A DNA stretch of 48,354 nt. Origin: Burkholderiales bacterium. GTDB lineage: Bacteria > Pseudomonadota > Gammaproteobacteria > Burkholderiales > Burkholderiaceae_C. The DNA lies in NCBI GenBank assembly GCA_018969975.1, contig JAGWXI010000009.1, positions 1 to 48,354 on the forward strand, in the 5' to 3' direction. Both the position numbers and the translations under genes were made by a program. Of this stretch, positions 28,492-46,110 are shown piece after piece. Under the pieces are notes generated by a model. The model did no database searches, had not been told where the DNA came from, and saw only the letters and a program-made list of their open reading frames with translations. Each line of letters opens with the position of its first letter. The stretch's first letter is position 1.

Positions 28492-29322
28492 ATGAAAATA
28501 TCTTTGTGTAATGAGGTGCTCGAGCCTCTACCTTTTGATGCGCAATGCAAGTTAGCGAGATCTTTGGGATACAAAGGTCTAGAAATTGCCCCTTTCACCG
28601 TTTCAGACAATCCTGAGAAATTAACAGTTCGAGAAGCGGAGAGTTTTCGAAAAATTGCCCAAGAAGAAGGACTTGTTATTACAGGACTCCATTGGCTACT
28701 AGTTAAACCAGTTGGGCTTTCGATTACTACACCCGATAAAGAAATATTTGAAAAAACAAAGCGCTTTGCCTCTAAATTATGTGAACTCTGCGATGCATTT
28801 GGTGGAAATTATTTAGTGCACGGCTCACCAAAGCAACGTCTTATTGCAGATGGTCAAACACATGCAGATGCACTAGCGCGGGCTATTGATTTTTTTGAAT
28901 ACGCTTCCAGTAGCGCACAAGAATTTAAAGTGACTTATTGCATCGAACCACTTTCAATCGACCAGACGCCAATCATCAATAAGATGTCAGAGGCTATTGA
29001 AATTGTTGAGAAAATTCGCTCCCCTCACCTTAAAACTATGCTTGACACGAGTTCAGCTGGATTAACTGAAAACATGTCTATTCCAGAGTTAATTCATCAA
29101 TTTATGCCTACTGGACATATTGCGCATGTACAACTCAATGATCCAAATCGAAGAGGTCCTGGGCAAGGTGAAATGCAATTTGGTCCAATTTTGCAAGCTT
29201 TAAAAACCAGCAATTACAGTGGTGAATTGGCTATCGAGCCGTTTGAATACTTACCAGACGGGCCCACTTGCGCTGCGCAATCTATCGGGTATTTGAACGG
29301 GCTGATTGAAAATAATAAATAA
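28492..29322 (+). CDS. Sugar phosphate isomerase/epimerase (xylose-isomerase-like TIM barrel)
   Basis: A 276-residue AP-endonuclease-2/xylose-isomerase-like barrel protein. The N terminus MKISLCNEVLEPLPFDAQCKLARSLGYKGLEIAPF is the usual first strand and helix. Metal-site residues seen are E in YCIEPLS, D in LDTSSAG, H in HVQLNDPNRRGPGQG and E in LAIEPFEY. The family isomerises or epimerises sugars, inositols or hydroxypyruvate. It is followed, after 23 bases, by the DUF993 gene, with which it probably acts. The base composition is more AT-rich here (about 38% GC in one spot-counted line). Confidence 0.85.
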   Translation: MKISLCNEVLEPLPFDAQCKLARSLGYKGLEIAPFTVSDNPEKLTVREAESFRKIAQEEGLVITGLHWLLVKPVGLSITTPDKEIFEKTKRFASKLCELCDAFGGNYLVHGSPKQRLIADGQTHADALARAIDFFEYASSSAQEFKVTYCIEPLSIDQTPIINKMSEAIEIVEKIRSPHLKTMLDTSSAGLTENMSIPELIHQFMPTGHIAHVQLNDPNRRGPGQGEMQFGPILQALKTSNYSGELAIEPFEYLPDGPTCAAQSIGYLNGLIENNK

Positions 29323-29345
29323 CTTAAAAGCTCTTGTACAAATCA

Positions 29346-30518: not shown

Positions 30519-30571
30519 ATTTTTAGAAAAAACTTGACGAAGCTACACTAATTGTTACTTTGACAGTAACT

Positions 30572-32104: not shown

Positions 32105-33182
32105 AGCCCGCCAACAAGCCTCTGTGATTTGGCGTTATGCATCGCCATTGCTGGCCTTGGCTATTACTTGTGCATTGGGGTCAGCCTTGTTTATGAGCAT
32201 GGGCATTTCACCCACCAAAGGTTTGTCCATGTTTTTTTGGGAACCGATAAAAAGTGTTTACGCCTTGTCTGAATTGCTTGTCAAAGCTACACCGTTGCTA
32301 TTGATCGCTCTAGGCTTGTCCGTTTGCTTTAAATCCAATATTTGGAATATCGGTGCCGAAGGGCAATTTGTCATGGGTGCCATATTTGCGGCAGGTGTTG
32401 CCCTCATGGCAGAAGTGGATAGCCATGCAGGTTATTGGGTATGGGTGGTTTTGGCAGGTATGTTGGGTGGCATGTTGTGGGCGGGTATCACTGCTTTTCT
32501 TCGCGACACATTCAACGCCAATGAAATCTTAGTCAGTTTGATGCTGGTGTATGTCTCCGTAATGATCTTGAACTATCTGGTGTATGGCTCTTGGAAAGAT
32601 CCATTGGGATACAACTTTCCTCAAACCAAGACATTTGATGCAGTGACCCAAATTCCCAAATTGATCGCAGGCACCCGCGTCAATATTGGAGCGCTATTGG
32701 CACTCATTGGCGCTGTTGCGTTGTGGCTATTTATGTTTCGTACCCACGCTGGATTTGCTTTGCAAGTCGGGGGGTTGGCGCCAGACGCTGCCCGCTATGC
32801 AGGCTTTTCCTCTCGCAAAGCTTTATGGACTGCCATGTTGATATCAGGTGGTTGCGCAGGATTGGCCGGTGCATTTGAAGTTGCGGGGCCTTTGAGACAA
32901 CTCACACCTTTCGTTCCTGCAGGCTATGGTTTTGCAGCCATCATCGTGGCCTTTGTTGGTAGGCTTCATCCTTTTGGCATGGTGTTATCTGCGCTATTGA
33001 TGAGTATGTTTTTTATTGGTGGTGAGTTAGCGCAGTCTCGACTTGGTTTACCGAGATCTTTGACTGGCGTATTTCAAGGACTGCTGTTGTTTAGTCTGCT
33101 GGCTTGCGACACCTTGCTGTTATTTCGCATCCGTTGGAGAGCTATACCAACCATGCATGCCGCACACACCGAGTCACGCTGA
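32091..33182 (+). CDS. ABC transporter permease, BMP/nucleoside-type (first)
   Basis: A 363-residue inner-membrane permease of the branched-chain/ribose-like permease family (BPD_transp_2). Typical segments are KSNIWNIGAEGQFVMGAIFAAG (about 83-104) and the coupling-helix region VGGLAPDAARYAGFSSRKALWTAMLISGGCAGLAGA (about 225-260). It pairs with the second permease and the double ATPase. The stop overlaps the second permease ATG as TGATG, suggesting translational coupling. Confidence 0.92.
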   Translation: MLRLEARQQASVIWRYASPLLALAITCALGSALFMSMGISPTKGLSMFFWEPIKSVYALSELLVKATPLLLIALGLSVCFKSNIWNIGAEGQFVMGAIFAAGVALMAEVDSHAGYWVWVVLAGMLGGMLWAGITAFLRDTFNANEILVSLMLVYVSVMILNYLVYGSWKDPLGYNFPQTKTFDAVTQIPKLIAGTRVNIGALLALIGAVALWLFMFRTHAGFALQVGGLAPDAARYAGFSSRKALWTAMLISGGCAGLAGAFEVAGPLRQLTPFVPAGYGFAAIIVAFVGRLHPFGMVLSALLMSMFFIGGELAQSRLGLPRSLTGVFQGLLLFSLLACDTLLLFRIRWRAIPTMHAAHTESR

Positions 33183-34096
33183 TGGAAACTTACGCACTTC
33201 TCTTGGCAGCCACTTTGAACGCAGGCACGGTTTTGGCACTTGCGTCTCTCGGGCTGTTAATCAACGAAAAAGCGGGCATTGTGAATCTTGGCGCAGAGGG
33301 CATGATGCTGTGTGCGGCCATTGCTGGTTTTGCCACGGTATCCGTGACTGGTAACGATTTACTTGGTTTTATGGCAGGCGTAGCAGCTGGGGCCTTGATG
33401 GCTGCTGTATTTGGTTTTTTTGTGATTTGGTTAAACACCAACCAATATGCAACAGGTCTGGCATTGAGTTTATTTGGCGTGGGATTTTCCGCCTTTGTGG
33501 GTGTGGCATTTGTCCAAGCCAAGTTGCCTGAACGCGTGCAATATCTAGTCCCATTTTTAAGCGACATACCTTGGTTGGGAAGTGCATTATTTCGTCACCA
33601 CCCCATGGTTTATGCAGTAGTGGCGTTGACCTTTGGTTTGACTTGGTTTTTATACAAATCGAGGCCTGGCTTGGTGCTTCGTGCAGTTGGTGAATCGCCC
33701 CATTCCTCTCATGCACTGGGGTTTTCAGTTCGACAAATACGCTTGGCCGCTGTCATCGCTGGAGGCGCGTTGTGTGGTTTGTCGGGCGCTTACATCTCCA
33801 TCATCTACACCCCCCTGTGGGTAGAGGGGATGATTGCTGGTAAGGGATGGATTGCGCTTGCGCTAACAACCTTTGCTACTTGGCGGCCTGCACGGGTGTT
33901 GTGGGGCGCTTATTTATTTGGTGGCGTCACCATGCTGCAATTTCACCTTCAAGCCTCTGGGCTAGACGTTCCAAGTCAATTTTTGAGCATGCTGCCCTAT
34001 GTTTCTACCATTGTGGTGCTTTGCCTTATTTCACAAAATCCGCGTTGGTTACGCGCTAACATGCCAGCTTCGCTTGGCAAGCCCTTCGCGCTTTAA
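33182..34096 (+). CDS. ABC transporter permease, BMP/nucleoside-type (second)
   Basis: A 304-residue permease, shorter than its partner as usual for the second subunit in this family. The N-terminal part has LASLGLLINEKAGIVNLGAEGMMLCAAIAG, and the coupling region reads RAVGESPHSSHALGFSVRQIRLAAVIAGGALCGLSGAY. The frame extends to 33104 inside the first permease; the ATG at 33182 shares one base with that gene's stop. It forms the membrane channel together with the first permease. A strong ribosome site for the next gene lies 36 bases on. Confidence 0.92.
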   Translation: METYALLLAATLNAGTVLALASLGLLINEKAGIVNLGAEGMMLCAAIAGFATVSVTGNDLLGFMAGVAAGALMAAVFGFFVIWLNTNQYATGLALSLFGVGFSAFVGVAFVQAKLPERVQYLVPFLSDIPWLGSALFRHHPMVYAVVALTFGLTWFLYKSRPGLVLRAVGESPHSSHALGFSVRQIRLAAVIAGGALCGLSGAYISIIYTPLWVEGMIAGKGWIALALTTFATWRPARVLWGAYLFGGVTMLQFHLQASGLDVPSQFLSMLPYVSTIVVLCLISQNPRWLRANMPASLGKPFAL

Positions 34097-34131
34097 ACAT
34101 TTTTTTCCCACCATCTCACTAAGGAGTTTTC

Positions 34132-35274
34132 ATGGTCGATTTCAAGAAACGCAGTTGGATCATCACTGCCTCGGTATGTGCCGTTACTGCCGGCGCGTTA
34201 GTTGCATGCGGTAAAAAAGAAGAAGCTAAACCGGCAGAGCCCGCTAAAGCAGAAGTGAAAGCTGAACCTCTCAAAATCGCGTTTGCCTATGTTGGGCCTG
34301 TAGGGGACGGCGGCTGGACGTTCGCCCACGACAACGCACGCAAAGCTCTAGAAAAAGAATTTGGCGACAAAATTCAAACTTCATTCGTTGAAAACGTACC
34401 GGAATCAGCAGATGCAGAGCGCGTGATTCGCGATATGGTCGGCCAAGGCAATAAGCTTATTTTTGGCACCACTTTTGGTTACATGGATCCCATGCTCAAG
34501 GTTGCAGCTGACAACAAAGACGTGAAGTTTGAGCACGCTACAGGTTACAAGCAAGCCGACAACATGCGCACCTACGACAGCCGAACCTATGAGGGTGCTT
34601 ATATGGCTGGCGTGATCGCTGGCAAGATGACCAAGACCAACACATTAGGTGTTGTGGCATCCATCCCAATTCCAGAAGTTATTCGCAATATCAATAGCTT
34701 TACCTTGGGCGCGCAATCCAGCAACCCCAAAATCAAAACCAAAGTAGTCTGGGTCAACGAGTGGTTCAACCCACCCAAAGAAACAGAAGCCGCCACCAGT
34801 TTGATCAACGGCGGTGCCGACGTACTTTTCCAAAATACGGATTCCCCTGCGGTACTCAAAACAGCGCAAGACAAAGGAAAACGCGCTTTTGGATGGGACT
34901 CTGACATGACGGCCTACGGCCCTAAAGCCCACTTAGCCTCAGCCATCATCAACTGGACGCCTTACTACATCAAAGCCACACGCGAAGCCCTTGAAGGCAA
35001 ATGGAATGGTGGCGGACACACGTGGTCAGGCGTGAAAGACGGTGCCATTGACATCGTCTCGATTGCTGACGATGTACCTGCTGACACCAAAGCCAAGGTA
35101 GAGGAAATCAAAAAAGGATTGACGGATGGCACTTTTGCCATCTGGAAGGGCCCACTGATGGACAACACTGGAAAAGAAGTGCTCAGCAAGGACAGCGTTG
35201 CTGACGACAAGTTTTTGAGTGGCGTCAATTTCTACGTCAAAGGCGTTGATGGAAAAGTACCAGGCGGTAAGTAA
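34132..35274 (+). CDS. BMP-family ABC transporter substrate-binding lipoprotein
   Basis: A 380-residue secreted protein. The N terminus has a lysine/arginine start, a hydrophobic stretch and a lipobox ALVAC with Cys near residue 24, followed by a KPAEPAKAEVK linker, so a membrane-anchored lipoprotein is likely. The BMP domain begins at LKIAFAYVGPVGDGGWTFAHDNARKALE and has GTTFGYMDPMLKVAA and FGWDSDMTAYGPKAHLASAIINW. A very good Shine-Dalgarno (AAGGAG, 34121-34126) precedes the ATG, consistent with high expression of the binding protein. Known relatives bind nucleosides; the ligand here is unproven. Confidence 0.92.
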   Translation: MVDFKKRSWIITASVCAVTAGALVACGKKEEAKPAEPAKAEVKAEPLKIAFAYVGPVGDGGWTFAHDNARKALEKEFGDKIQTSFVENVPESADAERVIRDMVGQGNKLIFGTTFGYMDPMLKVAADNKDVKFEHATGYKQADNMRTYDSRTYEGAYMAGVIAGKMTKTNTLGVVASIPIPEVIRNINSFTLGAQSSNPKIKTKVVWVNEWFNPPKETEAATSLINGGADVLFQNTDSPAVLKTAQDKGKRAFGWDSDMTAYGPKAHLASAIINWTPYYIKATREALEGKWNGGGHTWSGVKDGAIDIVSIADDVPADTKAKVEEIKKGLTDGTFAIWKGPLMDNTGKEVLSKDSVADDKFLSGVNFYVKGVDGKVPGGK

Positions 35275-35290
35275 AAATATTGCGTTAGTT

Positions 35291-36094
35291 ATGGATCAGG
35301 TCGAATTTGTCAATGGGAAAACCCGTGTCTATGGCATCGTGGGCGACCCCATTGAGCAGGTTCGATCCCCAGAAATGGTCACTTGGGAAATGCAAAAGCG
35401 CGATCACAACGCATTGCTGATACCGATGCACATTGCACGTGATGAATTTGATAGCGTGATGCCCCACATCATGCGCATGCGCAATTTAGATGGCTTGATT
35501 TTTACCATTCCCTTCAAAGCCCAAGCCATTGCGCTAGCAAAAACCTTAGGTCCTCAGGCCTCGCAGATTGGTGCGATCAATGCACTCAAAAAGCACAGCA
35601 GCGGCGCATGGAGTGGCGAAATATTTGACGGAATCGGATGTGTAGAAGCCTTCAAACAAAAAGGCATCACTCTTCAAGATAAGCGACTACAACTCATAGG
35701 CTTAGGTGGCGCAGGATCGGCTATTTGTGTTGCTTTGGCGTATGAAAAACCAAAGCTTATGCGCCTCTTTGATATCAACCCTCAAACCACTGAACGTATG
35801 GCCAAGATGGTGAACACCATCAGCCCGCAGACTGTGATTGAAGTTGGATTGCCACATGCAGAAGGCATAGACATCTTGCTCAATGCATCCCCAGTTGGCA
35901 TGCTGAACGACGCACGACTTCCCTTAGCAGTAGAGCAATTCAAAAAAGAGTTGATTGTTTTTGATGCGATCGTTATGCCAGAGAACACACCCCTGTTGTC
36001 CCTTGCCCATGATTGTGGCTGCCAATTTGTGAGGGGCAGAGAGATGATGCTCGGCCAAATTTCCAAAATTGTTGACTATTTTTTTGCGCCCTAA
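35291..36094 (+). CDS. Shikimate-dehydrogenase-like enzyme (AroE paralogue)
   Basis: A 267-residue protein with the AroE fold: a substrate domain (GIVGDPIEQVRSPEM), catalytic Lys K76 in FTIPFK, Asp D113 in FDGIGC, and the NADP motif GLGGAGSA at 137-144. The usual substrate-binding Ser pair (SxS in GxPIxxSxSP) reads VRS, and the following HN is replaced, so it may not use shikimate. Similar paralogues (quinate/shikimate or SdhL types) act in catabolism. It begins 16 bases after the BMP lipoprotein gene and would be part of the same operon, suggesting that the imported compound, or a product of it, is its substrate. The frame opens at 35219, but the ATG at 35291 fits the family. Confidence 0.82.
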   Translation: MDQVEFVNGKTRVYGIVGDPIEQVRSPEMVTWEMQKRDHNALLIPMHIARDEFDSVMPHIMRMRNLDGLIFTIPFKAQAIALAKTLGPQASQIGAINALKKHSSGAWSGEIFDGIGCVEAFKQKGITLQDKRLQLIGLGGAGSAICVALAYEKPKLMRLFDINPQTTERMAKMVNTISPQTVIEVGLPHAEGIDILLNASPVGMLNDARLPLAVEQFKKELIVFDAIVMPENTPLLSLAHDCGCQFVRGREMMLGQISKIVDYFFAP

Positions 36095-36136
36095 ATACAT
36101 TTAGAATCACACCATGCTCATTATTTGAGTGCATCC

Positions 36137-36224
36137 GCTAGGGGTGTTGGTGTCAACAAGGTGGCACTGGCTGAGAAAGTCCCTTTGAACCTGATTGAGG
36201 TAATCCTCGCGCAGGGAAGCTAGT
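36137..36224 (+). ncRNA. TPP riboswitch (thi element)
   Basis: The leader contains the conserved TPP riboswitch core in order: CTAGGGGTG (36138-36146), CTGAGA (36171-36176), CCCTTTGAACCTGAT (36181-36195), a hairpin TGAGG...CCTCG and GCAGGGAAGC (36211-36220). GCTAG (36137-36141) and CTAGT (36220-36224) can close the P1 stem. Binding of thiamin pyrophosphate normally lowers expression of the following gene. A small hairpin TGGGT/ACCCA (36240-36253) lies between it and the first start codon and may form part of the expression platform. It sits about 66 bases before the luxE-like ATG, with no other gene between. The call is firm. Confidence 0.96.
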
Positions 36225-36289
36225 CAAAAGTGACGGAACTGGGTATCCACCCACATTCTCCGAATCTGCGTTAGCCCCCTGCTCCAGTT

Positions 36290-37384
36290 ATGGACAACAT
36301 GGCAAACAACGCGTCAGTGATCGAAGATGAAGTAATGGCTTTCATGCAAATGAACGCTTCGGACGATGCCGCCTTCAATGCCATGGCTTTGCGCCTTTTT
36401 AAACACCAAGCGCAATTTAATGTGCCTTTCCAACGGTTTTGCCAAATGCGCGGTAAAACCCCACGCACTGTCACCCATTGGCACGACATCCCGGCCGTGC
36501 CTATCAATGCCTTCAAAGACTTAGATCTGACATGCACACCCACAAACCAATGTGGTCGCGTTTTCATGACCAGCGGAACAACCCGTGGTGATGTCAAAGG
36601 CCGTCATTACCACCCGTCGCTCAGGGTCTACGACGCATCCATGCGTTTAAATTTTGAACGGCAGTTAATGTCTCAAAAATCAAAAATACGGATTGGGATT
36701 CTTTTTCCAACGGTAGACATGATGCCCCACTCATCGTTGGCGCATTTCCTCCATTTAGCACTCGCGCATTTTGGTACACCCAATAGCCAATATTTCTTGG
36801 GACCTAGCGGCTTAGACATAGAAGCACTCACGCAAGCACTGCAACAGGCTGAAAAAAATCACGAACCTATCGCACTCCTTGGCGCTAGCTACAGCATGGT
36901 CCACGCCATGGATGCTCTGATCGCCTCTGGTGTTAATTTCAAACTGCCCACATCAAGTTGGTTGTTTGATACGGGCGGATTCAAAGGCCAATCACGTGAG
37001 ATTGAAATAGATAGTTTCTACAACCAACTCTCCAACACATTTGGCGTGCCGCGTTCTCAATGCTTCAATATGTACGGCATGACTGAGTTGAGTACCCAGT
37101 TGTACGACGCAGGTAACAGCACCACACCCTCCGTCAAACGTGGGCCACACTGGATTCGCACCAGAGTCATCGACCCCATCAGCGGCCAAGACATGCCAAA
37201 GGGCGAACGTGGCGTCTTGGTACACACGGACTTGGCCAACTACAACTCTGTCACCACCCTATTGACAGAAGACGTTGGCATCGCCACGGACGACGGTTTT
37301 ATTTTGCTGGGTCGCGCACAAGGCGCACAAGCAAAAGGATGCTCTTTGGCAGTTGAAGATTTTCTGCAGGCGGCGCGCGTATGA
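36290..37384 (+). CDS. LuxE/PaaK-like acyl-protein synthetase (carboxylate-activating enzyme)
   Basis: A 364-residue adenylate-forming enzyme. Its length is that of LuxE (about 370) rather than of phenylacetate-CoA ligase (about 430). The nucleotide loop is TSGTT at 94-98, the A5 motif is MYGMTE at 261-266, and LLTEDVG at 324-330 corresponds to the TGD motif. In bioluminescent bacteria LuxE activates a fatty acid as acyl-AMP and hands the acyl group to LuxC. Here it is the first gene after a TPP riboswitch, and the stop overlaps the luxC-like start (ATGA). I infer that it activates a carboxylated thiamin precursor. No clear Shine-Dalgarno sequence is seen upstream of the ATG at 36290; downstream starts at 36299 and 36335 are alternatives. 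Confidence 0.85.
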   Translation: MDNMANNASVIEDEVMAFMQMNASDDAAFNAMALRLFKHQAQFNVPFQRFCQMRGKTPRTVTHWHDIPAVPINAFKDLDLTCTPTNQCGRVFMTSGTTRGDVKGRHYHPSLRVYDASMRLNFERQLMSQKSKIRIGILFPTVDMMPHSSLAHFLHLALAHFGTPNSQYFLGPSGLDIEALTQALQQAEKNHEPIALLGASYSMVHAMDALIASGVNFKLPTSSWLFDTGGFKGQSREIEIDSFYNQLSNTFGVPRSQCFNMYGMTELSTQLYDAGNSTTPSVKRGPHWIRTRVIDPISGQDMPKGERGVLVHTDLANYNSVTTLLTEDVGIATDDGFILLGRAQGAQAKGCSLAVEDFLQAARV

Positions 37385-38841
37385 CCGTGTTGCATTTCAC
37401 TGCCGGCTACGTTCCAAGCATTGCGCATGAAGACCTGGCTTGGCACACGCTGACATATGGAGCAGGCGTTACACGATTGGAGGTGAAAGTCCCGATCTTG
37501 ACGCCTGCACAAATACTGGCTGTGACGCAACACATCAAGAGTGCCGTCCAATCGCACATCAAAACCATGGCCGTGTCAGATATCGTGCATGCTATCGATT
37601 TAGCTATTCTTAGATTGCTCGACGTCAACCATGAAGATAGAAAACGCATAGACACACTATTACCCATTGCCACAGGCATGGATGCAACCATGTTGCGCCA
37701 TAACTTCAGCGAATATTTACAAACATTCCGTGCACTGCAATTGCGTCGGTTTATCGCCGAGGACTTCAGCAATCCCAAAATGCTGGATGAATTTCAGCCA
37801 CGCATTACCGGAGGATGGACCAAGGCGGTAGGTGCAGACCTCGTCACGCATATTTGGGCTGGAAACGTTCCTGGTTTACCTTTATGGAGTTTGATCTCGG
37901 GCCTTTTGGTGAAGGCCGCAACGGTAGGTAAGGTATCGAGTACTGAGCCCATCTGTGCATCTATATTTGCCAACGTATTGGCAGATGTAGAACCTCGGTT
38001 GGCAGACTGTCTGTCGATTATTTGGTGGCCGACCGAAGACGTCGATATTGCCAGCCAACTATTCCAACAATCAGATATTGTTCTTGCCTACGGCGGAAAC
38101 AGCGCACTGTCTGCTATTCAAAACCAAGTACCCGTGACCACGCGCTTTTTACCGCACGGACATAAACTGAGTTTTGGTATGGTTTCTCAGTCTGCACTGT
38201 CTGTTGTGCGTGCTAAACGCGTTGCAGCCCAAGCCGCCTTAGACATCACCCGCTACGAACAACAAGGCTGTTATTCACCGCAAATGTTCTATGTAGAGCG
38301 TGGTGCTCAAGTGAGTCCACAAGAATTTGCACAGTCACTTGCTAGTGAATTGTCTGCATTGGCGCACAAATACCCAAGAGCCTCTTTGTCATTAGAAGAG
38401 GCTTCACACATCGCCAGTTGGCGTGAATCGCATGAATTTGCCATGTTGCAAAACTCTGAAATTCAAGTGCTGGGAGATAAGCAGGATGCGTTTGTGGTGG
38501 TTTATAGCGATACACCACTGTCGCTCAACCCCAGTCCGCTCAACCGATGCGTCACCGTTGTTGCAGTTGATTCGTTACTGGATGTAATGCCTTTGTTGAA
38601 AGACCAACGCCCGTATTTACAAACAACCGGCCTGGCAACAGATCCAGAAACATTGCTTCAATTAGGTGAAGCACTAGCGCTCGCTGGTGTCACTCGCATT
38701 TGTGCGATTGGCGAAATGACCTCTCCTGCTGCTGGTTGGCATCACGATGGACGATTCAGCCTAGCCGATTTGGTAAATATGGTCGACATTGAAACATCGA
38801 CTGAAGTTGCAGCGAATCAGTTAACCCACTATGAACTCTGA
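37381..38841 (+). CDS. LuxC-like acyl-CoA/acyl-protein reductase
   Basis: A 486-residue aldehyde-forming reductase of the LuxC family. Conserved pieces are HIWAGNVPGLPLWSL (157-171), the cysteine motif QGCYSPQ with catalytic Cys C297, and the C-terminal GWHHDGRFSLADLV (452-465). LuxC takes an acyl group onto its Cys from LuxE or CoA and reduces it to an aldehyde with NADPH. There is no luxA, luxB or luxD in the window, so light production is not the purpose. The overlap with the luxE-like gene and with the ABC ATPase gene shows one operon, under thiamin control. The natural acyl substrate is unknown; see the findings. Confidence 0.85.
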   Translation: MTVLHFTAGYVPSIAHEDLAWHTLTYGAGVTRLEVKVPILTPAQILAVTQHIKSAVQSHIKTMAVSDIVHAIDLAILRLLDVNHEDRKRIDTLLPIATGMDATMLRHNFSEYLQTFRALQLRRFIAEDFSNPKMLDEFQPRITGGWTKAVGADLVTHIWAGNVPGLPLWSLISGLLVKAATVGKVSSTEPICASIFANVLADVEPRLADCLSIIWWPTEDVDIASQLFQQSDIVLAYGGNSALSAIQNQVPVTTRFLPHGHKLSFGMVSQSALSVVRAKRVAAQAALDITRYEQQGCYSPQMFYVERGAQVSPQEFAQSLASELSALAHKYPRASLSLEEASHIASWRESHEFAMLQNSEIQVLGDKQDAFVVVYSDTPLSLNPSPLNRCVTVVAVDSLLDVMPLLKDQRPYLQTTGLATDPETLLQLGEALALAGVTRICAIGEMTSPAAGWHHDGRFSLADLVNMVDIETSTEVAANQLTHYEL

Positions 38842-39616
38842 TTCACGCATGACCCCAATCGAATCCAAGGCGCAGCATCTTTTGCGTCTGCAAAATGTGT
38901 CGTTCTCCTACTTAGAGGGTATGGAAACACTGCACAACATCAACCTAGATTTAGCGCCAGGCGAATTCCACTGCCTAATAGGTCGCAGTGGTTGCGGGAA
39001 AACCAGCTTGCTCAAATTAGCGGCTGGGCTACTTTCCGCCCAGCAGGGCGAAGTGGTGTGGAATAACCAACCGTTAATTACGCCGCAAAGCGATATGGGA
39101 TTTGTATTCCAACGTCCAACGCTTCTTGAGTGGTTAGACGTTATAGACAATGTATTACTGCCAATTGCATTGCATAGAAGAATTGAAAATTCAGATACCC
39201 ATAAGGCGAAAGAATTGCTGCAACGCATGGGGCTTGCAAATAAATTTGATGACAAGCCAACTGAACTATCAGGCGGACAACAAAGCCGCGTTGCAATTGC
39301 GCGCGCGCTGATCACCAGTCCACGCATCTTGTTCATGGACGAACCTTTTGCCTCTTTAGATGCGATCACCCGAGAAGAACTACAACATGATCTGATGGCT
39401 ATTTGTGCAGAACACAAAACTTCTATCTTGTTTGTGACACACGATATTGGCGAAGCCGTCTACCTGGGTAAACAGGTCTCTGTGATGGCGCAAGGAAAAA
39501 TTCACCACACACTCGCAATCGACTTGCCGCAACCGCGTCAAAACTCCATGCGCCACAGCCCAGAGTTCAATCACTTCAGTGCAAAGCTGCGTCATGCCAT
39601 GGAGGGGGTTGCATGA
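38831..39616 (+). CDS. ABC transporter ATP-binding protein, ThiZ/SsuB-like
   Basis: A 261-residue ATPase of the nitrate/sulfonate/pyrimidine-precursor importer group. Walker A is GRSGCGKTS, the signature LSGGQQSRVAIARAL and Walker B ILFMDEPFASLD, followed by the H-loop FVTHDI. It overlaps the luxC-like gene by 11 bases and the permease gene by 4. A downstream ATG at 38849 is an alternative start. With the permease and binding protein it forms a three-gene ThiXYZ-like system, a type that TPP riboswitches often control. Confidence 0.93.
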   Translation: MNSDSRMTPIESKAQHLLRLQNVSFSYLEGMETLHNINLDLAPGEFHCLIGRSGCGKTSLLKLAAGLLSAQQGEVVWNNQPLITPQSDMGFVFQRPTLLEWLDVIDNVLLPIALHRRIENSDTHKAKELLQRMGLANKFDDKPTELSGGQQSRVAIARALITSPRILFMDEPFASLDAITREELQHDLMAICAEHKTSILFVTHDIGEAVYLGKQVSVMAQGKIHHTLAIDLPQPRQNSMRHSPEFNHFSAKLRHAMEGVA

Positions 39617-40362
39617 AATCAAAGTCTTATTTTTGGACACTCGTGGTCGGTGTAGTTTTCTTAACAACTTGGGAAGTTTTGGTACGCGCACTAGGCACCT
39701 CAGAGTTGGTGATGCCAGCCCCATCGCGAGTTGCAGATGTTTTATGGAAGAGCTTAGTAAACGGTTACCTGTGGCCACATATTTGGCAAACACTGGTAGA
39801 AGTTTTTTGGGGAATTGTGTTGGGTGGGTTAATAGGGTGCGTTGGCGGCATTGTTTTAGGTGAGTCTAAGCATTTACGCTCTCTTCTCATGCCTTATGTT
39901 GTCTTGAGCCAAGTCATACCCAAATTGGCACTTGCACCTTTATTCATTGTCTGGTTTGGCTTTGGCGTGCTACCCACCGTTGTCATGACTGCGTTAATTT
40001 GTTTTTTTCCATTGCTTGAAAACACAGTGACCAGCATGCAACAAGTGGATCCACAGAAATTAGAACTTTTTAAAATGCTGCGTGCAAATAGGTGGCAAAC
40101 GCTGTGGCGCTTAAAAATTCCCTCAGGTATGCCTAATATATTGGCAGGCTTTCGGGTCGCTTTGGTTCTGGCATGGGTGGGTGCTGTTGTGGGTGAGTTC
40201 ATTGGATCGAGCAAAGGACTTGGCGCATTGATCATCGCTGCGCAAGGCTCTATGGATACGCCTTTGATGTTTGCTGTCTTAGTAGTTATCACCTTCCTCG
40301 GCATCTCAAGTTATTGGATATTTCAAACATTTGAACGTCGATTTTTGCAATCTCAATTTTGA
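39613..40362 (+). CDS. ABC transporter permease, ThiX/SsuC-like
   Basis: A 249-residue inner-membrane permease with about six hydrophobic helices. The EAA-type coupling region is visible as FKMLRANRWQTLWRLKIPSGMPNILAGFRVALVLAWVGAV (about 155-193). It belongs to the BPD_transp_1 group that carries sulfonates, nitrate or thiamin pyrimidine precursors. The start overlaps the ATPase stop. Position under the TPP riboswitch and next to a ThiY-like binding protein supports import of a thiamin precursor. Confidence 0.93.
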   Translation: MKSKSYFWTLVVGVVFLTTWEVLVRALGTSELVMPAPSRVADVLWKSLVNGYLWPHIWQTLVEVFWGIVLGGLIGCVGGIVLGESKHLRSLLMPYVVLSQVIPKLALAPLFIVWFGFGVLPTVVMTALICFFPLLENTVTSMQQVDPQKLELFKMLRANRWQTLWRLKIPSGMPNILAGFRVALVLAWVGAVVGEFIGSSKGLGALIIAAQGSMDTPLMFAVLVVITFLGISSYWIFQTFERRFLQSQF

Positions 40363-40382
40363 TTCTTCCAGAAAGTTTCCAT

Positions 40383-41399
40383 ATGTCTCTCGCGTTTCAC
40401 AGTTTCCGATTAACTATCGCTGGCACCATCACCTGTGTTTTGGGTCTACTTATTACAGCAACAGGCTATGCCCAATCACCTGCAAAGCTCGATAAAGTTG
40501 TCATCGCCAGCTGGGGTAAACCCATCACTGAAATTACCAATTTATTGGTTGAAGAAGACAAAGGCTTCTTCAAATCCAGAGGGATTGAGATGACGATTAT
40601 TCCTGGCGCAGGTGGTGCAGACGCGATACGCAATTTGCTGAGTGGCCAAGCCGATGTAGCGTTTACGGACCCCGCATCTTTTTTCACAGCCATCGACAAA
40701 GGTGAGAAATTAAGGGCTATTTACGATATTTACCCACAAAATATTTTTAATTTGGTTTCGCTTAAATCACAAAACATCACCAAACCATCGGACCTCAAAG
40801 GCAAGCGCATTGGCGTTTATAGCCTGGCCAGCGGGACAAGGCAAAACCTGCAAATCTTGCTACACCAAGCAGGTTTGACCGAAGCCGACGTCACCATCGT
40901 TGTGACTGGGTTATTGAACTTTTTACCCCTCATGCAAGGCCAAGTAGATGCCACAGCCGCTACCGACACAGGTCTTCTGGTTGGAAAGCAAAAAGGCCTA
41001 GGTGATGTGCATGTGATGGAAGTTAAAAATTATGTAAATATCTCCAGCGATTTCTTTGTTGTGCGAGAAGAAACTTACCAACAAAAGAAAGACGTTTTGA
41101 AACGATTTCTACAAGCCTACCAAGACAGCGCGGAATGGATGATGCGCTCACCCCAAGAGGCAGCCAAGTTGGCTGTGAAATTTGCGCTTGATGGCCAAAA
41201 CGAAACCGCTAATTTAGAAGTAATTAAGTTACGCAACTCCACCAGCGTTTCACCCGTGACCCAACAAAAAGGCTTAGGCGCTTTTGATATGAACGTCATT
41301 CAAAAGGGTGCCAATGCCTACAAAGCATTTGGCTTGATTCAACGCGACATCAAAGTTACAGATGTCATCAGCCAAGATTTATTACCAGGCAAAAAATAA
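40383..41399 (+). CDS. ABC transporter substrate-binding protein, NMT1/ThiY-like
   Basis: A 338-residue periplasmic protein. The signal peptide runs to about residue 33 (GLLITATGYAQ). The mature part begins LDKVVIASWGKPITEITNLLVEEDKGFFKSRGIEM, typical of the NMT1/THI5/SsuA fold. ThiY of this fold binds a formylaminopyrimidine; the Cys cluster of yeast THI5 enzymes is absent, so this is a binding protein and not an HMP synthase. Being in the TPP operon with LuxE/LuxC/SDR suggests that its ligand is a carboxylated precursor. The frame opens with TTG at 40359; the ATG at 40383 starts the signal peptide. Confidence 0.88.
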   Translation: MSLAFHSFRLTIAGTITCVLGLLITATGYAQSPAKLDKVVIASWGKPITEITNLLVEEDKGFFKSRGIEMTIIPGAGGADAIRNLLSGQADVAFTDPASFFTAIDKGEKLRAIYDIYPQNIFNLVSLKSQNITKPSDLKGKRIGVYSLASGTRQNLQILLHQAGLTEADVTIVVTGLLNFLPLMQGQVDATAATDTGLLVGKQKGLGDVHVMEVKNYVNISSDFFVVREETYQQKKDVLKRFLQAYQDSAEWMMRSPQEAAKLAVKFALDGQNETANLEVIKLRNSTSVSPVTQQKGLGAFDMNVIQKGANAYKAFGLIQRDIKVTDVISQDLLPGKK

Positions 41400-41400
41400 G

Positions 41401-42177
41401 ATGCATGCCAAGCGCTTTCACAACCAAACAGTTTTGGTAACGGGTGCTAGCCGAGGCATAGGTGCAGCGATTGCCAAAGCTTTTGCATCTGAAGGTGCAT
41501 GTGTCTTGGTGAACTACCTTGCGAATGCCGATTCAGCCAATGGCGTGGTGAGCGATTGTGAAAAGTTAGGCGGTACTGCCCTAGCCTTGCAAGCCGACGT
41601 ACGCGAACCATCTTCAGTCACGGATATGGTGGCTTATGCCATGCGCGAGGTTGGGCGCATCGATGTGTTGGTGAACAACGCATTTAGCCCTTACGCGTTT
41701 GACCCAGAAAACCGCAAACGCTTTTGGGAAACGCCATGGGCTGACTACCAAATCCAATTTGATGGCGCAGTTCAGGCTACCTTCAACGTTTGTCAGTCAG
41801 TGATTCCGAATATGCGTCAACGTGCAAAAGGCAGCATCATCAATATGGTGAGTGACTTGGTCTACCGACCCAGCATTCCTTATCACGACTACTCCACGGC
41901 CAAGTCTGCTTTAGTGGGCTTTAGTAGAAATTTAGCCACTGAATTAGGTCCTTGTGGCATTCGTGTGAACTGTGTTGCACCGGGCTTGGTCAGTCCTACC
42001 GCTTCTAGTGCGCACACCAAGGAAGCTGTCAAAGATATGTTGATCGCTCAGACACCCTTAGGAAGGTTAGCCACTCCAGCAGATGTGGCAGGCCCTGTTT
42101 TGTTTTTAGCGTCAGACGAGAGCCAATTTATGACCGGACAAGTCTTGGTTGTCGACGGCGGACTGGTGATGGTTTAA
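41401..42177 (+). CDS. Short-chain dehydrogenase/reductase (FabG-like)
   Basis: A 258-residue classical SDR. The NADP motif TGASRGIG is at 14-21, NNA at 92-94, catalytic Ser S151 and Y164-x3-K168 (YSTAK), with the C-terminal GQVLVVDGG. It would reduce a carbonyl to an alcohol (or the reverse). The ATG lies one base after the stop of the binding protein gene, so it is the last gene of the riboswitch operon. In the proposed scheme it reduces the aldehyde made by LuxC. It ends convergent with thiD, overlapping by four bases. The family is certain; the substrate is inferred. Confidence 0.88.
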   Translation: MHAKRFHNQTVLVTGASRGIGAAIAKAFASEGACVLVNYLANADSANGVVSDCEKLGGTALALQADVREPSSVTDMVAYAMREVGRIDVLVNNAFSPYAFDPENRKRFWETPWADYQIQFDGAVQATFNVCQSVIPNMRQRAKGSIINMVSDLVYRPSIPYHDYSTAKSALVGFSRNLATELGPCGIRVNCVAPGLVSPTASSAHTKEAVKDMLIAQTPLGRLATPADVAGPVLFLASDESQFMTGQVLVVDGGLVMV

Positions 42178-43022
42178 CCATGCAGAGCATGCATAGGCAC
42201 TGGCGTAAAACCATGGTTCAACGGTCCGTGGCCGTGGCCCGTGGTGATGTCTGCTCCGTGCGCAATCGCTTGCACAATAAATTGGCGTGCGCAGTGCACG
42301 GCCTCAGACAAGCCCATGCCCAAAGCCAAATAAGCTGCAATCGCAGACGACAAAGTGCATCCCGTTCCATGCACATTGTTGCTATGGATGCGACGCGAAG
42401 ACAAACGCTCAGAGGGCATATTGGGCTGTACCAGCAAATCCATCACATCGTCGCCAGGCAAGTGCCCTCCTTTGAGCAAGACAGCGTGCGCACCCATCGC
42501 CAGCAAATCTTGTCCTGCAGACTCCAGGACACTGGCGTCCGATATATCTCGGCCCAACAACAAAACAGCTTCATCCAAGTTTGGCGTGATGAGTGCTGCG
42601 CGAGGAAACAACTCGCGCACCAAGACTTGCACCGTTTCACTGGCAATCAAGCGGTCTCCACTGGTAGCCACCATCACGGGATCCAACACCACGTTTTTCA
42701 ATTGGTAGTGGTCGATGGCCCATGCCACTACATCGACAATTTCTGGGGCATGCAACATGCCTATCTTGATGGCGTCAACGCCAATGTCGTCCATTACAGA
42801 TTGAATTTGCGCTTTCAAGAATTCAGCTGGTATGCCGTGGATACCTTGCACACCTATCGTGTTTTGCGCGGTCAAAGCTGTGATGGCAGTCATGCCGTAG
42901 CAGCCCAAGGCAGCAAAGGTTTTCAAATCGGCTTGGATACCCGCTCCGCCACCGCTGTCAGAACCTGCAATGGTCAACACGCGGGCGTAGTGCTTAGAGG
43001 AATGAAGTTGCTTGTTAGTCAT
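42174..43022 (-). CDS. thiD: Hydroxymethylpyrimidine/phosphomethylpyrimidine kinase
   Basis: A 282-residue ribokinase-fold enzyme that phosphorylates HMP and HMP-P for coupling to the thiazole. The conserved GSDSGGGAGIQADLKTFAALG is near residues 20-40, VLDPVMVATSGDRL is in the middle, and the anion-hole motif NNVHGTGCTLSSA lies near the C terminus. The frame extends to a GTG at 43052; the ATG at 43022 gives the family length. It is on the opposite strand to both neighbours, divergent from thiO with 53 bases between. This is unusual because the other thi genes are arranged on the plus strand. Confidence 0.95.
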   Translation of the reverse strand: MTNKQLHSSKHYARVLTIAGSDSGGGAGIQADLKTFAALGCYGMTAITALTAQNTIGVQGIHGIPAEFLKAQIQSVMDDIGVDAIKIGMLHAPEIVDVVAWAIDHYQLKNVVLDPVMVATSGDRLIASETVQVLVRELFPRAALITPNLDEAVLLLGRDISDASVLESAGQDLLAMGAHAVLLKGGHLPGDDVMDLLVQPNMPSERLSSRRIHSNNVHGTGCTLSSAIAAYLALGMGLSEAVHCARQFIVQAIAHGADITTGHGHGPLNHGFTPVPMHALHG

Positions 43023-43024
43023 AC

Positions 43025-43041
43025 GCGCAATTATGCGCAAT
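43025..43041. repeat. GCGCAAT direct repeat between thiD and thiO
   Basis: GCGCAAT occurs twice, at 43025-43031 and 43035-43041, spaced 10 bases from start to start (one helical turn). The pair sits in the 53-base gap between the divergent thiD and thiO starts, within the thiD 5' leader. It could be a regulatory site; no TPP riboswitch fits in this gap. Evidence is weak. Confidence 0.35.
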
Positions 43042-43075
43042 GCTTGGCTCACTCTTTGAATAGGCCGCTTTTTTA

Positions 43076-44161
43076 ATGATTGCCAACTGCCATAGCGTTG
43101 TTTTAGGTGCAGGTTTGATGGGTCGATTACTTGCCCATAGCCTAGCTCGCCTAGGGCATCGTGTGGACATTTATGAAGCGCAAGGATCAGATGCGCAAGG
43201 TGCTGCTGCGCGCGTGGCCGCCGCTATGTTGGCACCACTTGCAGAGTCTGCGATTACTGAATTGCCAGTCGTGCAGATGGGGCAACATGCGCTCAAACGT
43301 TGGCCCGAACTATTGAAAGAATTACAGCAATCAGTTTTCTTTCAACAAAACGGCACCCTGATTGTTTGGCATCGCCAAGATGCTCCTGAAGCCCAACGAT
43401 TCGCGCAAGTGCTCACTCGTACACAAACCCAATTGCCTAGCTTGCCTGCATTACAGCCGCTTGGAAATACTGCGATCGCAGAAATGGAACCTGCATTGCA
43501 AGGACGGTTTCACAATGCTCTCTTCCTACCCGAGGAAGGGCAATTGGACAATCGTCAACTCCTCACTGGATTACTCGATAGCCTCCAAAAGCAAGGCGTC
43601 GGGCTGCATTGGAATAATGCCAAAGCACCTGATGATTTCTCCCCAGGTGCAACAGGAGAACCTGACTGGGTTTTTGATTGCCGAGGCCTAGGCGCTAGAC
43701 AAGATTGGCAGGCTCTGAGAGGTGTTCGTGGCGAAGTCATTCGTTTACATGCTCCCGAAGTCACCTTACAGCGGCCAACGCGCTTGATTCATCCGCGCTA
43801 CCCCATCTACATAGCGCCTAAGCCAGACAAGGTATTTGTAATCGGTGCCACAGAAATCGAAACAGAAGACCTGTCCCCTGCGAGTGTGCGATCCACTCTG
43901 GAATTACTTAGTGCTGCTTACACAGTACACAGCGGTTTTGCTGAAGCGCGTATCTTAGAAATCAGCACACAAGCTAGGCCCACGTTGGTAAATAATCTGC
44001 CCGGCATTCGCCAACTTGGCGAGCGCTCATTACAGATCAATGGTTTATACAGGCATGGATTTTTAATTGCGCCTGCCATGCTTGATATTGTTTTGGAGTG
44101 GGTGCAGTCGCGCAAAACAACTCTTGCCAATCATTTTGCTTTGAAATTTGAACATGTCTGA
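43076..44161 (+). CDS. thiO: Glycine oxidase ThiO
   Basis: A 361-residue DAO-fold flavoprotein. Its FAD motif is VLGAGLMGRLLAHSLARLGHRVDIYEA near the N terminus, and the C-terminal segment RPTLVNNLPGIRQLG...YRHGFLIAP is typical of ThiO. It oxidises glycine to iminoacetate, used by ThiG to build the thiazole. Its position with thiS and thiG supports the assignment over other amino acid oxidases. The start is the ATG at 43076. Its stop overlaps the thiS start region by 8 bases. Confidence 0.93.
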   Translation: MIANCHSVVLGAGLMGRLLAHSLARLGHRVDIYEAQGSDAQGAAARVAAAMLAPLAESAITELPVVQMGQHALKRWPELLKELQQSVFFQQNGTLIVWHRQDAPEAQRFAQVLTRTQTQLPSLPALQPLGNTAIAEMEPALQGRFHNALFLPEEGQLDNRQLLTGLLDSLQKQGVGLHWNNAKAPDDFSPGATGEPDWVFDCRGLGARQDWQALRGVRGEVIRLHAPEVTLQRPTRLIHPRYPIYIAPKPDKVFVIGATEIETEDLSPASVRSTLELLSAAYTVHSGFAEARILEISTQARPTLVNNLPGIRQLGERSLQINGLYRHGFLIAPAMLDIVLEWVQSRKTTLANHFALKFEHV

Positions 44162-44369
44162 GACAAACACCATTACCGTGCTTATCAACCAAGCACCTTT
44201 CAAACTGCCACCCAACGCTACTTTGCAAGATGCGGTGCAATGCATTGGTATCGAGCCGCCCTTTGCTGCTGCAATTAATCTTCAGTTTGTTCCGAAATCG
44301 CAATATGCCAGCCATGTATTGCAAACCAACGACCAAATTGAACTCATATCTCCCATCACGGGCGGTTAA
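44154..44369 (+). CDS. thiS: Sulfur carrier protein ThiS
   Basis: A 71-residue ubiquitin-like sulfur carrier ending in the required Gly-Gly (ITGG). The C terminus receives sulfur as a thiocarboxylate and delivers it to ThiG for thiazole synthesis. The frame opens at TTG 44148; the ATG at 44154 is chosen. Its stop overlaps the thiG ATG by one base (TAATG). The activating enzyme ThiF and the sulfur-relay proteins are not in this window. Confidence 0.94.
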   Translation: MSETNTITVLINQAPFKLPPNATLQDAVQCIGIEPPFAAAINLQFVPKSQYASHVLQTNDQIELISPITGG

Positions 44370-45181
44370 TGCTTATGGAATCATCTATGCCTACCTCTTC
44401 ACCTCTCACGTTGTATGGCGAGACTTTTTCTAGCCGTTTGCTTTTAGGCACTTCGCGCTACCCTTCCCCTAGTGTGTTGCTAGCTGCTATTGCGCGTGCA
44501 CAACCGGCGATGCTGACTGCGTCTCTAAGACGTCAAACGGGTTCTGGCGGAGAAGCTTCGCAAAGCTTTTGGAATCTACTTCGCGAAGCAAAGGTGCCAG
44601 TACTTCCCAACACGGCGGGCTGTCATAGCATGCAAGAAGCCATAACAACGGCTGAAATGGCAAGAGAAGTTTTCAATACCAACTGGATCAAACTCGAGTT
44701 GATCGGAGACGATTACACCTTGCAACCAGATACCCTGAATTTGCCTGAAGCTGCCAGTCGACTCATCCAAGCAGGGTTCAAAGTGCTTCCCTATTGCACC
44801 GAAGATTTGGTGCTATGCCAACGCTTGGTCGATGTGGGTTGCCAAGCCGTCATGCCTTGGGCTGCACCGATTGGCACTGGCAAAGGGCCGGTAAATCCCA
44901 CGGCATTGCGCACACTCAGAGAGCGCCTGGATGTGCCTTTGATCGTAGATGCAGGTTTAGGTTTGCCCTCACACGCCTGTCAAGTGATGGAATGGGGTTA
45001 TGACGCCGTGTTACTCAATACCGCTGTAGCTTTGGCACAAGACCCTGTCGCTATGGCTGGCGCATTCGCTGACGCTGTTGACGCAGGACACCATGCATTT
45101 TTAGCTGGCGCTATGCAAGCGCAAGATGCGGCCCAGCCCAGCACTCCTGTTTTAGGAACCCCTTTCTGGCACCACACATGA
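44369..45181 (+). CDS. thiG: Thiazole synthase ThiG
   Basis: A 270-residue TIM barrel that condenses deoxyxylulose phosphate, iminoacetate and ThiS thiocarboxylate to the thiazole phosphate. Conserved segments are SRLLLGTSRYPS (22-33), the Schiff-base region NWIKLELIGDD with K108, MPWAAPIGTGKG and VDAGLGLPSHA. The first 12 residues vary in the family; the ATG at 44369 gives the maximal overlap with thiS and is plausible, with an internal ATG at 44387 as an alternative. The stop overlaps the thiE start by four bases. Confidence 0.96.
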   Translation: MLMESSMPTSSPLTLYGETFSSRLLLGTSRYPSPSVLLAAIARAQPAMLTASLRRQTGSGGEASQSFWNLLREAKVPVLPNTAGCHSMQEAITTAEMAREVFNTNWIKLELIGDDYTLQPDTLNLPEAASRLIQAGFKVLPYCTEDLVLCQRLVDVGCQAVMPWAAPIGTGKGPVNPTALRTLRERLDVPLIVDAGLGLPSHACQVMEWGYDAVLLNTAVALAQDPVAMAGAFADAVDAGHHAFLAGAMQAQDAAQPSTPVLGTPFWHHT

Positions 45182-46110
45182 ACACCACAAGCTTGCACCA
45201 TTCAGTATTCGAAATTGCACACGCCATAGCAGACCGTTACGCCCATTTAAAAGTCGGGGAGGATCTCAGCTATGCAAAGTGCTTGGCCGATGCGACAGCC
45301 ACTCCCAGCTTTGCAGAACTTTCACTGCATATGCAAGGCATCAAGTTAGGTTGCCGCTTGTTGGGTTTTGTGGAACATGATGCGCAGTGCATCATGCTTG
45401 CATGGCAATCGCAAACGCAACGATTAGGTAGTTTTGATATCTCGGTATGGCCATCGAACCCAAGTGACTTTGGAATGAGCTCTTTTCCCAGAAAGAATGC
45501 TTTTGCACCATGCCCCAATCAATTAGGTTTGTATGCGGTGTTACCAGACGCACAATGGGTTTATCGCATGGCGCAAGCGGGCGTACCCACCGTTCAGTTG
45601 CGATTTAAATCAGACGACAAAGCTGCAATAGCAAAAGAAGTAGCTGCAGCCGTTACAGCAGTGCAAGGCACAAACTCATTGTTATTCATCAACGACCATT
45701 GGCAAGAAGCCATAGCTGCAGGTGCTTATGGCGTTCACCTCGGACAAGAGGATATGCAAGAAGCCTCTTTAGAAAAAATCCGAACTGCTGGGCTGCGATT
45801 AGGTTTAAGTACCCATGGGTATGCAGAAATGCTCTTGGCTGACCGCCATTCGCCCAGTTATATGGCCTTAGGAGCAGTCTTTCCAACCACCCTCAAACGC
45901 ATGGTAACTGCGCCCCAAGGGCTTGGAAGATTAGAGCGCTATGCCCAACTCATGAAGGCTTACCCGCTGGTCGCAATTGGCGGAATTGACCTAGAGCAAT
46001 TGCCCGCTGTTGTAAAAACAGGGGTGGGTTCTGTTGCGGTTGTGAGGGCCATCATTGCATCAGAATCGCCAGAGGCAACCGCTCAGGCGTTCCTGCTTAA
46101 TCTGCTTTGA
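45178..46110 (+). CDS. thiE: Thiamine-phosphate synthase with an N-terminal extension
   Basis: A 310-residue protein. The C-terminal 195 residues (from about 116, GLYAVLPD) are the ThiE barrel, which joins HMP-PP and thiazole phosphate: VPTVQLRFK, FINDHWQEAIAAGAYGVHLGQEDM, LGLSTHGYAE, ALGAVFPTTLK and GVGSVAVVRAI are recognisable. The first 115 residues are an extension absent from ordinary ThiE (about 210 residues), with no family recognised with confidence. Some burkholderial ThiE proteins, as I recall, also carry an N-terminal extension. The start overlaps the thiG stop (ATGA). The end overlaps the convergent Bug gene by 14 bases. Confidence 0.9.
   Translation: MNTTSLHHSVFEIAHAIADRYAHLKVGEDLSYAKCLADATATPSFAELSLHMQGIKLGCRLLGFVEHDAQCIMLAWQSQTQRLGSFDISVWPSNPSDFGMSSFPRKNAFAPCPNQLGLYAVLPDAQWVYRMAQAGVPTVQLRFKSDDKAAIAKEVAAAVTAVQGTNSLLFINDHWQEAIAAGAYGVHLGQEDMQEASLEKIRTAGLRLGLSTHGYAEMLLADRHSPSYMALGAVFPTTLKRMVTAPQGLGRLERYAQLMKAYPLVAIGGIDLEQLPAVVKTGVGSVAVVRAIIASESPEATAQAFLLNLL

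Follow-up and report, generated by a model that had tools for sequence, protein, structure and literature searches.

A TPP-riboswitch-headed luxE-luxC-SDR operon as a candidate salvage route for the thiamin pyrimidine

The stretch of DNA analyzed here (the window, 48,354 nt of contig JAGWXI010000009.1 from Burkholderiales bacterium, assembly GCA_018969975.1) contains an operon in which a thiamin pyrophosphate (TPP) riboswitch is followed by genes for LuxE- and LuxC-like proteins, an ATP-binding cassette (ABC) importer and a short-chain dehydrogenase/reductase (SDR). The operon probably constitutes a TPP-repressed salvage route for the thiamin pyrimidine, in which a carboxylated pyrimidine would be imported, reduced at the expense of ATP and NADPH to hydroxymethylpyrimidine (HMP) and passed on to ThiD. 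Computed here were the riboswitch, the gene set, conserved residues of catalytic type and a distribution among genomes that fits a source of the pyrimidine. Salvage of thiamin precursors as such is already known, and salvage through LuxE/LuxC carboxylate reduction is undescribed in the open-access listings searched.

An earlier note on this DNA had described the order of elements given below, and this order was confirmed by the riboswitch score and by Pfam matches. Coordinates refer to the window, and gene ends include the stop codon.

36130-36234, plus strand: TPP riboswitch aptamer RF00059, a member of the family by the Rfam covariance model (57.6 bits, gathering score 54.3)
36290-37384, plus strand: predicted LuxE-like carboxylate-adenylating, acyl-transfer enzyme (Pfam LuxE, 1.5e-18)
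37381-38841, plus strand: predicted LuxC-like acyl-thioester reductase (Pfam LuxC, 1.1e-96)
38831-39616, plus strand: ABC importer ATPase (Pfam ABC_tran, 3.8e-32)
39613-40362, plus strand: ABC importer permease (Pfam BPD_transp_1, 2.9e-34)
40359-41399, plus strand: NMT1/ThiY-like substrate-binding protein (Pfam NMT1, 1.1e-49; TTG start, alternative ATG at 40383)
41362-42177, plus strand: SDR oxidoreductase, proposed aldehyde reductase (Pfam adh_short_C2, 1.5e-59; alternative ATG at 41401)

With these starts, four of the five junctions within the operon overlap by 4 or 11 bases, and the second ATG of the SDR gene (41401) lies one base past the stop of the binding-protein gene. ATG 40383 of the binding-protein gene, if used, would leave a gap of 20 bases instead of an overlap. 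In the genome of origin (assembly 89% complete) the operon aptamer is the single RF00059 match, and neither ThiC (PF01964) nor TenA (PF03070) was found. As had been stated before, there is no luxAB or luxD among the open reading frames (ORFs) of the operon, the search for luxAB having covered the operon and not the rest of the genome.

The arrangement is not due to chance, because it is conserved. LuxC as a query against GTDB genomes yielded 315 relatives, of which the best 80 were taken and the other 235 not looked at. In 80 of these 80 loci luxE adjoins luxC; an SDR gene is present in 67, and the remaining 13 contigs end before its position. Two Pantoea loci (L073, L079) lack the ABC genes, and in L030 and L064 the contig stops short of them. 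The aptamer was counted in the 71 loci with at least 250 bases before luxE, nine shorter contigs being dropped. The earlier note had named luxCE genes standing in other contexts without thi elements as evidence that would speak against its proposal; instead, a TPP aptamer heads the unit in 68 of the 71 loci. It lies directly before luxE (within 450 bases) in 61, the order aptamer-thiD-luxE is seen in six (L047, L052, L056, L065, L068 and L072, with thiD and luxE overlapping in L052), and the order aptamer-cytX-luxE in L032 only, where the CytX-like match reaches 219 bits, below the cut-off of 310; L052 and L032 were assigned to these classes by hand from the table. Of the 24 aptamers used to train the covariance model behind the counts, 23 came from these very loci, and Rfam served as an independent check. 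Together they replaced a regular-expression search that found the aptamer in 22 of the 80 loci and missed many. Of 27 loci scanned with Rfam, 16 have a gathering-level aptamer at the head of the unit. The other 11 are L051, L064, L045, L048, L077, L041, L040, L067, L068, L009 and L026, of which L009 and L026 are cut off upstream of luxE and L026 has its Rfam match elsewhere. In these 11 the covariance model finds the aptamer except in L067 and L009, and in L026 it finds only the aptamer end. The thi genes neighboring the loci are thiD, thiO, thiG and thiE, with a CytX-like gene in L032 and L025 and thiW in L113.

The question of which half of thiamin is concerned is addressed by genome distribution. 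For this purpose, LuxC, ThiC and ThiG were sought in 397 genomes of the family and cross-tabulated, with 36 ThiG matches weaker than E 1e-6 and five LuxC matches of 32-33% identity being counted as absent. LuxC is present in 11 of 22 genomes that lack thiC and have thiG, in none of 104 that lack both, in 28 of 265 with both genes and in none of six with thiC only. Among the thiC-minus genomes the association of LuxC with thiG has a Fisher p of 3.5e-10, a value weakened by the fact that p-values for related genomes overstate their independence (the 11 thiC-minus LuxC genomes represent seven genera). All 39 LuxC genomes contain thiG, whereas none of the 110 thiG-minus genomes contains LuxC. The 22 thiC-minus thiG-plus genomes also differ in a CytX-like permease, which is found in one of 11 with LuxC and in ten of 11 without it (p 0.0003); counted by genus, the contrast is 1/7 versus 9/10 (p 0.004). 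Four of these ten LuxC-less genomes (G027, G346, G355, G396) have the CytX-like gene no more than 3 kb from thiG. The module thus behaves like a supply route for HMP in being enriched in thiazole-making genomes without ThiC and complementary to a CytX-like HMP source. Together, the distribution of LuxC and its near-exclusion with CytX-like genes point to the pyrimidine half of thiamin and favor HMP, the product regarded as the best candidate from the outset. In one genome with thiG and without thiC, G350, no match was obtained for LuxC, for a CytX-like permease or for TenA.

Genomes lacking thiG should benefit most from a module that makes thiazole or whole thiamin; since LuxC occurs in none of the 110 such genomes, the product of the module is probably neither of the two. 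Reduction of thiazole acetic acid to hydroxyethylthiazole or of thiamin acetic acid to thiamin, both brought forward earlier as alternatives, is therefore disfavored as a function and appears quite unlikely, all the more as near-exclusion with a CytX-like HMP permease would not be expected and thiG is kept in every LuxC genome of the family. A thiM gene downstream of the unit in L133 and thiW upstream of it in L113 would suit these substrates, yet ThiM and ThiW serve thiazole on their own. A 1970 paper cited in PMC7575681 does name thiamin acetic acid in its title as a metabolite of the rat, and the predicted fold of the binding protein comes closest to a thiamin-bound protein (4nmy).

A simple anti-correlation of LuxC and thiC was not found over all genomes; the signal emerges only once thiG is considered as well. 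Neither was such an anti-correlation seen in Bacilli, where thiC is present in ten of 11 carriers and non-carriers were not searched. TenA was rejected as a contrast. It is missing in ten of 11 thiC-minus LuxC genomes, a point that the earlier note had raised, but also in seven of 11 comparable LuxC-less genomes, and its presence in 1/11 versus 4/11 (one of them a weak match) is not a significant difference.

The proteins themselves belong to the LuxE and LuxC families but not to their luminescence branches. The LuxE-like protein scores 67.3 bits with Pfam PF04443 (gathering cut-off 24.9) and only 58 bits with the luminescence equivalog NF052244, which requires 550; for the LuxC-like protein the values are 324.7 bits with PF05893 (cut-off 21) and 129.3 of 750 bits with NF052251. 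At E up to 0.1, the only relatives of both with solved structures are the two chains of 7xc6. Cys297 of LuxC aligns with a cysteine of 7xc6_A in the motif QQ(G/A)C(Y/F)S and is invariant in 27 thi-linked sequences, while Cys351 of LuxE aligns with a cysteine of 7xc6_E in the motif KGCSL and is invariant in 33; we take both to be the acyl-carrying residues. In the SDR, the GxSRGIG glycine motif, Tyr164 and Lys168 are invariant in 20 sequences. The predicted model of LuxE (predicted local distance difference test, pLDDT, 90.7) has PaaK as its nearest fold, with other acid-adenylating enzymes next and ClxA with 3-amino-4-hydroxybenzoate at ranks 23-24. PaaK is an aromatic-acid ligase, and the proximity of the model to PaaK and ClxA was counted in favor of the proposed salvage route. 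In a LuxC tree of 49 rows, midpoint-rooted and with long outgroup branches, 45 thi-linked proteins separate from four others, one of which stems from a luxCDE cassette (99/96); three proteins linked to NCS2 permeases form one clade.

These observations bear on the idea that LuxE, LuxC and SDR produce a fatty aldehyde or alcohol for some other use, so that the link to the TPP riboswitch would be incidental or regulatory only. Homologues of LuxC and LuxE are indeed also encoded in flagellin glycosylation islands according to PMC7874193. Yet the aptamer heads nearly all loci counted, neighbors and distribution track thiamin genes, the scores lie far below those of the luminescence models and the thi-linked LuxC proteins stand apart in the tree, all of which makes a fatty product very unlikely.

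The binding protein scores 169.7 bits with Pfam NMT1 and, together with the ABC permease and ATPase, has the composition of a ThiXYZ importer. Its predicted model (mean pLDDT 90.6) has as nearest solved structures 4nmy, which is thiamin-bound, and 3ix1, the pyrimidine binder ThiY; 3qsl and THI5 come next, SsuA first appears at rank 6 and TauA at rank 25. The nearness to 4nmy and ThiY speaks for the proposed route, in which this importer may bind a thiamin pyrimidine.

The genes at the far side of the operon would complete the pathway. They are the following, and the first of them bears out the adjacent ThiD reported earlier.

42174-43052, minus strand: thiD, HMP/HMP-phosphate kinase (TIGR00097, 319.8 bits, exceeding the cut-off of 204.95)
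43076-44161, plus strand: thiO, glycine oxidase (TIGR02352, 234.9 bits, a little below the cut-off of 250.8)
44148-44369, plus strand: thiS-like sulfur carrier with C-terminal GG (assigned by ORF, ending and position only)
44369-45181, plus strand: thiG, thiazole synthase (Pfam ThiG, 4.8e-99)
45178-46110, plus strand: thiE-like thiamin phosphate synthase (Pfam TMP-TENI, 4.7e-45)

We infer the substrate, its import, each of the reactions and NADPH as the donor. The ABC importer would take up a carboxylated thiamin pyrimidine, most likely 4-amino-2-methylpyrimidine-5-carboxylate, which is chosen here because LuxE, LuxC and SDR would convert this very acid straight into HMP. Mammals excrete this pyrimidine carboxylate. 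LuxE would adenylate the carboxylate with ATP, and the acyl group would move via Cys351 of LuxE to Cys297 of LuxC, where the thioester would be reduced with NADPH to the aldehyde. The SDR would then form the alcohol, i.e., HMP, ThiD would phosphorylate it to HMP pyrophosphate, and ThiE would couple the pyrimidine with the thiazole provided by ThiO, ThiS and ThiG. It is conceivable, albeit rather unlikely, that LuxE, LuxC and SDR work on another acid derived from a pyrimidine or from thiamin, such as a substituted aminopyrimidine acid, and reduce it to a precursor that still ends up as HMP. The genomic evidence for a pyrimidine product fits this equally well; however, HMP is the direct reduction product of the 5-carboxylate with ThiD as the sole extra step, and the luxE-luxC-SDR core of the loci read contains no additional conserved enzyme. 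A role in inactivating or converting a pyrimidine antivitamin such as bacimethrin, instead of supplying HMP, seems extremely unlikely. Bacimethrin is an alcohol analogue of HMP and not an acid, an ATP-driven acid reductase would be ill-suited to it, and detoxification need not be absent from thiG-minus genomes, of which none of the 110 examined has LuxC. What speaks for it is that PMC12637900 reports bacimethrin in the freshwater habitat of Limnohabitans and describes Limnohabitans as vulnerable to this compound.

Several findings weigh against a pyrimidine-carboxylate salvage route. The gene thiC is retained in 28 of the 39 LuxC genomes of the family sample. Among 49 genomes that carry the loci, 28 have it as well, a count that excludes one 25-bit ThiC fragment (G409) and the genome of L073 and comes from part of the 80-locus set, sharing members with the 397 genomes (for example, G388 and G402 give an identical ThiG place). 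The Bacilli carriers have thiC in 10/11 and thiG in 11/11, counts that cover carriers only. The module thus accompanies ThiC more often than it substitutes for it, is more often a supplement, and lack of ThiC is not its sole driver. The gene for ThiG was found in 47 of the 49 genomes, the two misses being assemblies of 1.3 and 2.0 Mb. No CytX-like match reaches the curated cut-off of TIGR02358, and with the E-value limit unchanged this model also hits three of 14 control genomes (E. coli, B. subtilis and Sulfolobus), so that the CytX-like set may include other NCS1 permeases. Strong TenA matches do not separate the groups (1/11 with LuxC versus 3/11 without, p 0.59). Three of the 71 loci (L022, L067, L069) have no aptamer, and Rfam at E 0.1 detected none in L022 and L067 either; in Niallia and a Bacillus locus (L051, L064) the aptamers score as low as 35 and 34 bits. 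The best 50 fold matches of the LuxE model do not include 7xc6_E, the LuxE chain of known structure. The top NCBIfam model for the binding protein is the SsuA family (101.5 bits, below the cut-off of 163.5), and its predicted fold, with SsuA structures close behind at rank 6, would permit thiamin itself as ligand. Finally, judged from listings, no open-access paper was found that shows the pyrimidine carboxylate in the environment.

Reductive salvage of the pyrimidine would share features with established systems. TenA/YlmB salvage with the ThiXYZ importer converts formylaminopyrimidine and aminomethylpyrimidine to HMP. Similarly, the operon would make HMP from an imported, damaged thiamin pyrimidine under TPP-riboswitch control, and its binding protein has a predicted fold of the NMT1/ThiY type (3ix1). 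In contrast to the hydrolysis by TenA/YlmB, carboxylate activation followed by two reductions would be used, and TenA is absent in the great majority of thiC-minus carriers, as detailed above. Carboxylic acid reductases (CAR), single multidomain proteins with a carrier domain, convert carboxylates to aldehydes via a thioester with ATP and NADPH. The reduction proposed here would have the same cofactors and intermediate, but two separate proteins with cysteine thioesters would carry it out. The fatty acid reductase LuxC-LuxE of luminous bacteria (7xc6) has in common with the operon one aligned cysteine in each protein, while the lack of luxD and luxAB in the operon, the low model scores, the separate LuxC group and the thiamin context set the two apart. 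CytX, a proposed HMP transporter, is likewise linked to thi genes and ThiC-less genomes (PMC5874261), and a CytX-like permease fills the same gap as the operon in this family. CytX is proposed to move ready-made HMP, whereas the operon adds reducing enzymes, mostly where a CytX-like gene is missing. Beaudoin et al. assigned CytX to HMP by its presence in genomes without ThiC (PMC5874261), which is the same argument as applied here to the LuxC operon.

Across the loci, luxE-luxC-SDR is the constant core, and the importer is variable, being an NMT1-type ABC system, an NCS2 nucleobase-type permease or none. An NCS2 permease takes the place of the ABC importer in L112, L113 and L129, a replacement counted in favor of the proposed route. 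In Niallia taxi (L113), thiW, the NCS2 permease, luxE, luxC and SDR lie behind two tandem TPP aptamers, located at 4564-4860 and scoring 85.0 and 72.9 bits. Priestia (L114) has the ABC form and an aptamer of 49 bits, below threshold.

A search of plasmids gave 39 records with a LuxC match, 27 of which cover at least 80% of LuxC. On a 10.3 kb plasmid of Lactiplantibacillus plantarum (L112, NZ_CP035118.1, 1390-6321), genes for an NCS2 xanthine/uracil-type permease, LuxE, LuxC and SDR are arranged in this order with a TPP aptamer of 67.6 bits upstream. The same permease-luxE-luxC-SDR set is present in Levilactobacillus brevis (L143, NZ_CP050546.1), where the four protein accessions are identical to those of L112. 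Both plasmids are small, come from South Korean sources and reside in two lactobacillus species, which looks like recent horizontal transfer of the cassette. A Pantoea dispersa plasmid encodes luxE-luxC-SDR with neither an ABC nor an NCS2 importer. On a Pseudomonas silvicola plasmid (L116, 5991-9262), luxE and luxC appear split into separate frames behind a TPP aptamer of 63.8 bits. An aptamer at Rfam gathering level heads the unit in three of four plasmid loci.

Among 398 Bacilli genomes sampled, 11 have a LuxC relative. Ten stretches were examined, the genes of L138 and L130 being called in a crude way only; a gathering-level TPP aptamer heads the unit in eight, and none was found in the stretches of L133 and L138. 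The order in L132 is TPP aptamer-tenI-(thiO-like, by eye)-thiG-thiF-luxE-luxC-ABC-permease-binding protein-SDR, that of L133 has thiM downstream of SDR, and L136 and L137 contain luxE-luxC-SDR only. In L137, divergent TPP aptamers are located at 10457-10759, one for luxE-luxC-SDR and the other for a membrane protein that resembles YkoE by eye and has no NCBIfam match at 1e-10.

With regard to novelty, no link of LuxC or LuxE to thiamin was found in titles and abstract openings of open-access papers, a scope outside of which lie supplements, RegPrecise, SEED and subscription papers; this agrees with the earlier statement that no such description was known. A comparative study of thiamin genes reportedly appeared in 2002; it lies outside this search and might contain a mention. 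The main text of the 2013 survey of TPP regulons, leaving supplements aside, has no word starting with 'lux' (PMC3766115). A 2025 paper describes Limnohabitans as dependent on exogenous pyrimidine via ThiV, ThiY, CytX and TenA, and its main text contains neither LuxC nor LuxE (PMC12637900). Limnohabitans is the source of four of our loci (L007, L024, L029, L032); the isolates JirII-31 and Jir72 of this genus have the locus, and thiC was not found in them.

Reduction of pyrimidine 5-carboxylate by LuxE, LuxC and SDR thus has a good chance of being a further widespread pyrimidine route besides ThiC, TenA and direct uptake of HMP. If so, it would span Pseudomonadota, Bacilli and plasmids of food lactobacilli and Pantoea, and the LuxE-LuxC pair would gain a role outside luminescence. 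Genome-based scoring of thiamin auxotrophy relies on thiC, tenA and transporter genes; genomes scored as HMP auxotrophs could then have an unrecognized supply. The oxidized thiamin pyrimidine would be a traded nutrient and a new, biologically available pool of vitamin B1 precursor that has gone unmeasured, and a transferable three-gene cassette for rescuing thiC mutants would be at hand.

Binding of TPP to the aptamer should switch the operon off, for which the following segment is a possible expression platform.

36270-36282, plus strand: GTTAGCCCCCTGC, just upstream of luxE, complementary to the 3' side of the aptamer, GCAGGGAAGCTAG

This segment pairs in the predicted ligand-free fold, whose z-score is only -0.43, 69 of 200 shuffles folding equally well. 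An AGC...CCTG version of it is readable by eye in 20 of 21 leaders inspected. Further upstream in the window, in a region in which no thiamin link was seen (28492-36094), reside genes for a xylose-isomerase-like protein, a DUF993 protein, an ABC importer of the BMP type (PnrA-like) and a protein carrying the N-terminal domain of shikimate dehydrogenase.

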